Part shown: positions 56,701 through 59,700 of the stretch, piece by piece | Layout of the letters: each line of letters starts with the position of its first letter | How positions within the stretch are numbered: position 1 is the first letter of the stretch | NCBI GenBank assembly: GCA_030141605.1 | Contig: JAQGDQ010000778.1 | Location: 1 to 64,000 of the forward strand | Direction of reading: 5' to 3' | DNA: 64,000 nucleotides | Origin: Tubiluchus corallicola | Lineage: Eukaryota > Priapulida > Priapulimorpha > Priapulimorphida > Tubiluchidae | Translations under genes and position numbers: made by a program | The notes under the pieces: model-generated | What the model saw: the letters and a program-made list of their open reading frames with translations, nothing else | What the model was told of the DNA's origin: nothing | The model's database searches: none

Positions 56701-59700
56701 AATGATTTTGGACTGCAACTGCACAGTATTGCGAGACTAGCGACTGCAACTGCACAGTCTTGCGAGACTAGCGACTGCAACTGCACAGTCTTGCGAGACT
56801 AGCGACTGCAACTGCACAGTCTTGCGAGACTAGCGACTGCAACTGCACAGTCTTGCGAGACTAGCGACTGCCAACGCCAGGACATATACCTACATAATAA
56901 TAATAATTGTTTGTTTCAAGAGAAGAGTTATATGTTAAAGTACAGTTTTAAAATGTTTTTTTTTTGTAGTTTCAAGGTAGTTTTTGTTATATTTTTAACA
57001 ACTGTTTAATGTAAGTCTCTGATATTGCATAATTAGTTTCTGTATATATCGTTTGGCGCACAAAAATGTGCGAAAATTTAGACTACAGCAATATTAGAAG
57101 CAAGCGTCTCACCACAAAGTATAACTTGGTATTAGAGTGCCACAAGCGATCTAATTCCCCTTGTTTTATTTATCCACGTAAAAACCTATACTATTTCTAC
57201 TTCTACATTGTTTATTTTTTACTAAAAACTGGCACGTTTCACATTTGTAAGTGTTTCGTTCTTCACCTGCCATGTTTTACTATAACAGGTCAACAACCCC
57301 AACTTTCGCACATGTTTTAGTTACATTTGATAATTGCTGCAAATCACAAGTATTTAAGTAATTCTGCAGGCTTCCCATGGTGATTGAAAAATTTTTCAAA
57401 TGTAACTGGCATGTATTTTCATTTCCTTCCCGTGCACGGATGCACATTGGACAGACAGCATTTTCCACTGGGTTCTATCGGCGGCTTCTCTTTCGATGTT
57501 CTCCCAACGTCTGTTAATAGCCCAAAGGTCTTCTTTGAAAGATCTGCGCCACGTTGTTTTTGGCCGACCTCTTTTCCTTTTTCCATCAGGTGGTTCCCAG
57601 CGTAACGCTATTTTGGAGTGGCGTTGTTCTGGTAGGCGTAGAATATGTCCAGCCAATCTCAGCCTTCTCTCTGCGACTATTTCCTGCAACCGCCTTGACT
57701 GCGCCTGCTGTAGGACTTCCACATTGACAAGCGAAGTTTGATTTTCTTGTCAATTTTCTTGCTTGCCCAGATTTTTCCCATCTTCCTAAATACTGCTGCT
57801 GCTTTGCCAATTCTCACCCTGATGTCGCTTTCATGTCCACACTGTCGAAACTTTGGTCTTTTCATGACCTATTCTCTGTCCAATTTTCACTGCAGTAGCT
57901 TTTAATGATTTTGAAACTGTATCACTGTGTGAAAACTCTGTATAACTGTAAAAATTTGTTAGCAAAAGTTACGAATGTCTATGATTTCTTTAAATTGGAA
58001 TATTACAACTTCATTTATATTTCTACCTCCCAGCATTAACACTTCAAGTTTCCTTTGTGAATTTTATTCAGTTATTAAATATTCTCACGTAATATGAGCT
58101 CTTAGATGTTCGGTTGTAGAAAAAGGCATTTTATGCACTAATGTTAGTTTTGGTTCAGCAAAATCTGAAAAAATGATATATGGTTCAGTGTAGTTTGTTT
58201 CTTGGGTAGATTTTTCCATTCAGTGAGCAAACATTTCTCTTCAAAAAGCTCGTTTTGGTGAAAATCCTATTATTAACATCACTTATGTACAGTCAAGTTA
58301 CATAAGTGGTTCAATTAAAAGAAATTAATAGACTAATAGCAAAAGTAAAATAAATATCAAACACCGAACAATAAAAAAGCACAGTTGTTATTTACATACA
58401 AGAAGACAAAGCATTAATTTTGCATTTGTCATTATGATTATTTTTCATCACATTTCATTGTGAAATCATAATTTCTAATTTTGGTTTTTACTGATTTTTA
58501 TTTAAGTTTAACATCCAAAATGGATAAAAATGAGAATTGCTCAATTCCTTTACTTCTATGAAAACATAACGTTTGCAGCTTTGATGCCGTTTCATGTTAT
58601 AGCTGTAGATGCTTGTTATGTTGCGTTATATTTTCGACTAGAGCTAAGCTTTGTGTAACTTACTTGCACTGGGTGTAATAGTAACTTTTTAAACTGATTT
58701 TAGGTTGCGATTGCGGATATTAGCGTTCCTGATCCGAACACTGCTGGTCAAGATCCGACAGAATCAGTGGATAGCTATCCACCCGGTGAAACTTCGACAT
58801 GCAAAACCACTGAAACTGTCAGCACTCAGAATTCTGGAAATGCGGACACGATCACCACCGACAGCGCTGCGGGCACAGCGGCGGAAACGGCAAGTAACTA
58901 CCCGCCAGGTGAGACGTCTACCTGCAAAACCACTGATACGGTCAGTACGCAGAAGGCAGGACAAGCTGATACTAACACTACCGACAGCTCCGCAAACCAA
59001 GAAGCTGCAAGTAACTACCCGCCCGGGGAGACGTCTACCTGCAAGACGACAGACACGGTCAGCACTCAGAAGGCTGGCCAGTCAAACACTAACACTACCA
59101 ATAGTTCTCCAAATCAACAAGCTGCTGAACAGTACCCGCCCGGAGAGACATCCACCTGTAAGACGACAGACTCGGTTAAAACGCAAAATTCTGGACAGTC
59201 AAACACTAACACGACCGACAGCGGCACTGCCAGCGGTTCTTCTGCAAACAGCGATGAGTCACAAAATGAAGCCAAAGGAGATGAAGCCAAAACTACAAAA
59301 GAAGAAGATAAACTGCCATCTGGTGAGCAGTCGAGTTACAAGACAACCGATACAGTAAGCTGCCATTCATCCGGACAAGCTGTCACACACACGACAGACA
59401 GCTCTCCAAAACAAAAGTGCACTATCCAAGCCGTTGCCATGGCAACTCAGCCAGTTGAGCAGATGCCACCTGGTGAGACTTCTACGTGCAAAACCACTGA
59501 TACGGTGAGCACCCAGTCTGCAGGACAGTCCAACACAAACACTACTGATAGTGCAGCAGCAGCAGCAGCTCAGCAGCAGGGAGAGACATCCGGAGAAGGA
59601 ACCTCTGCACCGTGTAAGTACAGAGATGATTATGTTCTGTTGATGCTTGATATTATTTGGTATTTGATATTTAAGCTGGAATACTGTAATTAATACACAA

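Follow-up and report, generated by a model that had tools for sequence, protein, structure and literature searches.

The DNA analysed here, hereafter the window, comprises the first 64,000 nucleotides (forward strand) of contig JAQGDQ010000778.1 in the genome assembly of the priapulid Tubiluchus corallicola (GCA_030141605.1), and it contains a gene for HCF with a large exon (58704-59613) that carries short Thr-rich repeats. Judged from its sequence, the exon encodes a real, constrained array of repeats resembling the HCF-1PRO repeats of vertebrates, at which OGT cleaves the protein. We assign a probability of roughly 0.6 to the interpretation that its tandem repeats serve as OGT-binding cleavage sites like vertebrate HCF-1PRO and that at least one of them is cleaved; the array is likely to work like the vertebrate system. 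The evidence considered below comprises the register that links Glu10 to the Thr-rich part, the codon-level constraint on the copies, their position within the HCF gene, an OGT with the expected contact residues, and a seventh repeat at a predicted splice junction.

The repeat array

Translation of 58704-59616 gives a single open frame holding all six exon repeats, which bears out the description in an earlier first-pass annotation of the window (six repeats of about 30 residues in one exon, five of them with a shared core). The features are as follows (slashes mark exon boundaries):

58704..59613, + strand, PRO-like repeat exon, predicted splice sites, phase 0 in (TTTTAG/GTTGCG) and phase 1 out (CCGT/GTAAGT)
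58779..58868, + strand, repeat 1
58902..58991, + strand, repeat 2
59019..59108, + strand, repeat 3
59136..59225, + strand, repeat 4
59316..59405, + strand, repeat 5, diverged, retaining Glu10, Thr16, Thr17 and Thr19
59466..59555, + strand, repeat 6
59607..59613, + strand, junction repeat (seventh), part one, by predicted splice: Ala7, Pro8 and the first base of the Cys9 codon
61174..61226, + strand, junction repeat, part two: remainder of Cys9, Glu10 through position 26

Five of the six exon repeats, all except the fifth in order, share a 16-residue core ending in [DE][TS]V[SK]T, which in these five main copies is followed by a less conserved stretch, Q[NKS][SA]G[QN][AS][DN]T[NI]TT[DN]S. The conserved unit is about 30 residues long, and copies 2 to 4 are spaced by 39 residues (117 bp) from copy to copy. 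Six of the seven repeats lie in one large exon, while the seventh, missed in the first-pass annotation, crosses the predicted 3' junction of the same exon. Glu10, Thr16 and Thr17 are invariant in all seven repeats and are also found in the human repeat, and the register from Glu10 to the Thr-rich part is ungapped throughout, with a three-residue linker as in vertebrates. Pro7 (Ala in the junction repeat), Pro8 (Ser in repeat 5), Thr19 (Ser in repeat 4) and Thr22 (Cys in repeat 5) are each kept in six of the seven copies; position 21 is Ser in five and Lys in one, with Thr21 solely in the junction repeat. The earlier claim that Glu10, Thr11, Thr16, Thr17, Thr19 and Thr22 are all kept therefore holds in every copy for Glu10, Thr16 and Thr17 and needs amending for the others, as Thr19 is replaced in copy 4, and copy 5 lacks Thr11 as well as Pro8 and Thr22.

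A second conserved Thr patch, around NTNTTDS, lies at approximately positions 30-35 of repeats 1-6 (window 58851-59555) and is lacking in the human repeat; it possibly makes a longer contact along the groove formed by the OGT tetratricopeptide repeats (TPRs). No Pfam family was found for exon 58704-59613, and neither the exon nor a single unit matched any sequence in the PDB, which is expected because the repeats are short and disordered.

A seventh repeat at a predicted splice junction

The predicted donor CCGT/GTAAGT (59613) and acceptor TATTGTAG/GTGAG (61174) give a phase 1 join without a stop, while a GT read by eye two bases upstream of the 59613 donor would lead to an immediate stop if used. 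The intron splits the Cys9 codon of the junction repeat, which, as joined, is identical to the published human core at 13 of 20 positions (BLOSUM62 score 69), including Cys9, Glu10, Thr14, Thr16, Thr17, Asn18, Thr19, Thr21 and Thr22. Shuffling the 60 residues around it never reached this score in 300,000 trials; 66 of 300,000 trials did so when the Thr-rich run was held fixed and the preceding 30 residues were shuffled. With its Cys9 and Thr14, this predicted repeat is the best candidate for efficient cleavage.

Codon-level constraint

The five main copies appear to be old, and to have been constrained to one peptide. Summed over their ten non-independent pairs, 94 of 126.7 synonymous sites (pS 0.742) and 16 of 353.3 nonsynonymous sites (pN 0.045) differ in the core, giving a corrected ratio of 0.014 that is rough, pS being near saturation. 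In the 14 codons after the core pN is 0.176, and core pN is 0.108 with repeat 5 added. The cores of copies 2, 3 and 6 encode the same 16 residues, yet 0.55-0.87 of their synonymous sites differ, and four-fold third positions differ in 65 of 96 comparisons. Neutral recent tandem expansion was considered as a source of the copies and set aside, given the saturated synonymous sites. Read in this way from the codons, the constraint shows function, without saying which.

Chance similarity and uniqueness in the genome

When the whole spliced region was compared with the human 26-mer, none of 5000 shuffles reached the observed score, and the best alignment was the junction repeat. The upstream segment with the VAIAD anchor is insignificant by itself (548 of 5000 shuffles were equally good), and with repeat 1 added to the anchor 135 of 5000 were, a weak result in which the best alignment left the anchors unpaired. 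The anchor therefore carries no weight in the case, which is built on register, repetition, position and the junction repeat. The first-pass annotation had placed the repeats directly after VAIADIS, exactly as in the human protein; a stronger statement on position is that they are flanked by a basic region on one side and an acidic one on the other, and by Fn3n and Fn3c further out. A shuffled 39-residue exon unit equalled the match to the human 16-mer in 1216 of 400,000 trials by score and in 1652 by identity. When the contig was scanned in all six frames (77,530 16-mers), the top four matches were repeats 6, 3, 2 and 1 (scores 38, 38, 38, and 37), and repeat 5 was missing from the 18 best 16-mers.

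In the 343.5 Mb genome, an exact degenerate DNA pattern for PGETSTCKT occurs at five places, all in the repeat exon, compared with none for the reversed control, and a protein query with a composite of the animal's own unit, in a search that scored best candidates only, matched six places at E ≤ 10, again all in this exon, so that a repeat family elsewhere in the genome was set aside. Scans with the repeat alignment, the first of which addressed a viral origin, gave 10 pattern matches in viral contigs and 46 in contigs of prokaryote genomes, with no confirmed relatives in either; both are weak negatives because the patterns are short and the collections non-animal.

The host gene

The repeat-bearing gene is HCF by its domains, as had been proposed earlier: Kelch_HCF, Fn3n and Fn3c are all encoded by it, and 278 of 335 ungapped positions in the Kelch domain agree with human HCF-1 (positions picked by hand from tblastn matches). 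The three exons tested match Pfam Kelch_HCF, each singly under the whole-domain cut-off of 113 bits. The gene is laid out as follows:

32704-32847, 35636-35821, 35962-36135, 37055-37282, 38916-39014, 39619-39726 and 40771-40920 (edges approximate), + strand, exons of the HCF Kelch domain, from tblastn with human HCF-1, Pfam for three of them, and the genome-wide Kelch_HCF search
41611..41751, + strand, Fn3n exon, from tblastn, 74% identity to human HCF-1
42513..56132, + strand, basic Thr/Val/Ala-rich region upstream of the repeats, seven candidate exons of predicted order and edges, from open frames and partial tblastn matches
61174..61454, + strand, acidic/Gln-rich exon 3' of the repeats, containing the degenerate taspase-like SVDGALED at 61395
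72762-75542 of the contig, past the window end, Fn3c exons, from tblastn with human HCF-1

The region upstream of the repeats has 25 K+R vs. 4 D+E across 432 residues (taken from the candidate frames), and the exon downstream 1 K+R vs. 17 D+E in 73 residues. Omitting exon 58704-59613 shifts the next exon into a frame with a stop. Among the best candidates in the genome, Kelch_HCF gave 14 matches, of which seven are the Kelch exons of this gene and seven lie on other contigs (best 70.5 bits across 254 positions); the latter are read as other Kelch proteins, and HCF is apparently single-copy among the best-scored candidates. One HCF-like protein was reported in each of four non-jawed species examined (PMC6582346), and the same seemingly applies here.

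Several features of the locus itself were also recorded. A 50-bp unit in about three copies (99% match; window 41487-41642) coincides with the acceptor and the opening codons of the Fn3n exon. As a result, the same 11-residue peptide recurs at 41511, 41561 and 41611, in every case with an acceptor-like site of its own. An HCF intron contains a 5S rRNA match (42933-43051, + strand, 106.4 bits) directly followed by unrelated sequence, perhaps a 5S-headed SINE (short interspersed nuclear element). A tandem array with a 103-bp period (55133-55960) lies within the gene, about 2.7 kb ahead of the repeat exon.

OGT and taspase1 of the animal

The OGT gene was found on contig C1067, and its exons were joined by hand and aligned with human OGT in the PDB (residue numbers are alignment chain numbers minus 40). 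The encoded enzyme is identical to human OGT in the stretches with Lys396 (LKEMQ), Lys430 and Asp431 (HKD), and Lys842 (FNQLYK), and in the five Asn-bearing TPR stretches SLNNLANIK, AHSNLASVL, AYSNMGNTL, AHSNLASIH and AYCNLAHCL, whose asparagines we take to be those contacting HCF. K396A OGT loses cleavage about 50-fold and retains glycosylation (Kapuria et al., PMC4840301), and the OGTs of Drosophila and Trichoplax cut the human repeat (PMC4840301), so the enzyme side is seemingly not limiting.

For taspase1 there is one uninterrupted open frame of 409 residues at C1704:67602-68426 (- strand), 46.7% identical to human TASP1, which appears to be an intronless gene or a retrocopy kept intact. 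No site fitting the taspase1 consensus, which we take to be Q-[FILMV]-D-G-x-D-D, was found in HCF by a scan with one loose pattern over contig 41-76 kb on the sense strand, a scan that would miss an intron-split site; SVDGALED (61395) and EQDGLDAD (near 64.0 kb, noted by eye) both misfit. As taspase1 reportedly has other targets, e.g., MLL, its presence says little about HCF.

Proposed mechanism and alternative explanations

According to the published model, the repeat is held in the TPR groove by its Thr-rich residues, and glycosylation of Glu10 is followed by breakage of the chain. By analogy, the last OGT TPRs would receive the Thr-rich part of the priapulid repeats (positions 16-22) on their asparagine ladder, with Glu10 next to UDP-GlcNAc; once Glu10 was glycosylated, the bond preceding it would break, and the two HCF parts could be kept together via Fn3n and Fn3c, both of which are present in the gene. 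The six repeats with Gly9 and Cys14 (Tyr14 in one) would be weaker cleavage sites or docking sites. We infer binding, cleavage and a functional role from the repeats and their gene context, as we do the splice junction from its sequence signals.

Several observations weigh against this interpretation. All six exon repeats have Gly at position 9, and position 14 is Cys in five of them and Tyr in one, so that Cys9 and Thr14 are confined to the junction repeat; these replacements had escaped the first-pass annotation. C9A and P8A inhibit proteolysis (PMC4549301), and Thr14 is important for cleavage (PMC4840301). The junction repeat depends on a predicted splice site and its Thr run is of low complexity. 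The shuffle test of a single unit gives moderate support when taken alone, and in the contig scan repeat 4 (32) ranks below two Thr-rich sequences from other places, namely the run in the exon that follows (35) and a frame in another part of the contig (33). The conserved contacts of OGT are non-discriminating, because they are general to OGT, and the taspase1 frame means that an alternative route for HCF processing exists in this genome. Regarding position 9, Glu10 plus the Thr-rich region permit cleavage in a foreign sequence with Val9 (about half of the peptide was lost, below the parent), and therefore Gly9 need not be fatal; in the same work a register shift of one residue abolished cleavage (PMC6240873).

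Docking without cleavage is the main rival. The repeats would bind OGT, or act as Ser/Thr O-GlcNAc acceptors or pseudosubstrates, and stay uncut, with HCF matured otherwise or never. The replacements at positions 9 and 14 affect residues needed for efficient cleavage, Ser12 and Thr13 lie near Glu10, and the extra Thr patch lengthens the unit past the human one, as longer TPR docking would predict. We nevertheless consider this explanation unlikely, since Glu10 is kept in all seven repeats though it hinders OGT binding (PMC4549301), from which a docking site gains nothing, and the junction repeat carries the full cleavage set. Somewhat less probable again is a convergent or unrelated low-complexity Thr/Pro-rich array with a different role (e.g., an interaction or phosphorylation motif): through Thr-rich composition alone, 0.3% of shuffles match the human 16-mer equally well, the Thr-rich frame elsewhere on the contig comes within a few points of the best repeats (33 vs. 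38), and the anchor is insignificant, but none of 5000 shuffles of the spliced region scores as well against the human repeat, the array occupies the same site of the same protein, and seven repeats hold Glu10 in register with strong constraint on the core. Finally, taspase1 could process HCF as published for Drosophila, the repeats being a side feature, a scenario that is compatible with the other two. The intact taspase1 frame and two degenerate Asp-Gly sites speak for it, while neither site fits the consensus, and we regard it as improbable. Cleavage of at least one repeat by OGT thus remains the interpretation that we prefer.

Comparison with known systems

The array resembles vertebrate HCF-1PRO (human HCF-1 residues 1010-1035 and five more) in its Pro-Pro-x-Glu-Thr cleavage part, its linker and Thr-rich register, and its invariant Glu10. 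Both occur in the same protein, in one large multi-copy exon, and between basic and acidic regions, as reported for the vertebrate repeats (PMC6582346). In contrast, the unit is about 30 rather than 26 residues long, six of the seven repeats differ at positions 9 and 14, there is the extra NTNTTDS patch, a predicted intron interrupts one repeat within its Cys9 codon, and the host is protostome-like. As six of the seven fail at Cys9, Thr14, and Thr21 (mostly Ser), the array is best filed as a variant of the vertebrate repeats. The earlier claim of PRO-like repeats in a non-vertebrate HCF is accordingly upheld with regard to the invariant residues, the constraint, the OGT contacts and the junction repeat, and is qualified by the replacements at positions 9 and 14.

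Diverged PRO-like units in HCF have also been described for the degenerate repeats of chimaera HCF-1 and HCF-2 (PMC6582346), at least one of which was called certainly cleavable by OGT; these are few and belong to a jawed vertebrate, whereas the priapulid array has seven copies in a non-vertebrate. Drosophila HCF is likewise an invertebrate protein that has basic and acidic flanks and undergoes processing mid-protein (PMC4840301, PMC6582346), processing being predicted for the priapulid. It differs in having a taspase1 site and no PRO repeats, while priapulid HCF has degenerate taspase-like sites only, and seven PRO-like repeats.

Origin and significance

According to PMC4840301 the repeat is found in vertebrates only and not even in degenerate form elsewhere, and a viral origin was proposed; PMC4549301 describes the repeat core as common to vertebrates and not to invertebrates, and a 2022 paper (PMC9710795) states that the activity is absent in invertebrates such as C. 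elegans. These papers agree with the earlier statement that the repeats had been published for vertebrates only. HCF-1 is given as the single known substrate of glutamate-based cleavage by OGT (PMC6240873). We recognised no report of invertebrate PRO repeats in the open-licence literature, judged mostly by titles and the beginnings of abstracts. As a sequence feature, the priapulid HCF array contradicts the vertebrates-only premise.

A homeodomain search gave 30 matches in the genome, 11 of which were translated; by signatures that we take to be diagnostic, Hox1 to Hox5 types are represented, along with an Antp type, a gene whose tail is UbdA-like (ALKEMKEQ), a Post2/AbdB type and a Post1-like gene. 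Judged by these signatures, the complement fits a protostome, probably a spiralian. COX1 was not found in the assembly. A jawed vertebrate host was set aside in view of the HCF Kelch exons on a single contig together with the protostome-type Hox genes.

Similarity and position lend tentative support to common descent with the vertebrate repeats, the upstream anchor alone being insignificant. Since the Hox genes are of protostome type, the system would, under common descent, go back to the ancestor of bilaterians and have been lost in flies and worms. We tentatively suggest, at slightly less than even odds, that OGT proteolysis of HCF was present in the protostome-deuterostome ancestor, was lost in flies and nematodes and has been kept here with seven sites, one almost vertebrate-like. 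The first-pass annotation went further than this evidence in calling the process ancestral to animals, as the Hox genes support a bilaterian ancestor at most, and under common descent. If the ancestral reading is true, a gain by transposition or from a virus in the vertebrate ancestor would be wrong, and OGT cutting of HCF may predate what published work says. The array makes the origin of OGT proteolysis testable, and its natural variants Gly9 and Cys14 probe which residues the reaction truly needs.

Other features of the window

About 2 kb 5' of the first HCF exon there are nine tandem 60-bp repeats (30269-30810) that are open in frame, and a further large tandem array with a 95-bp period lies at 26989-27472. 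The neighbouring genes on the minus strand include long single frames for an AAA ATPase (1965-3524) and a second frame similar in look (6286-7890), followed by an RCC1-BTB protein (15149-16906) and an IKK-like kinase with a scaffold domain (21225-22979).

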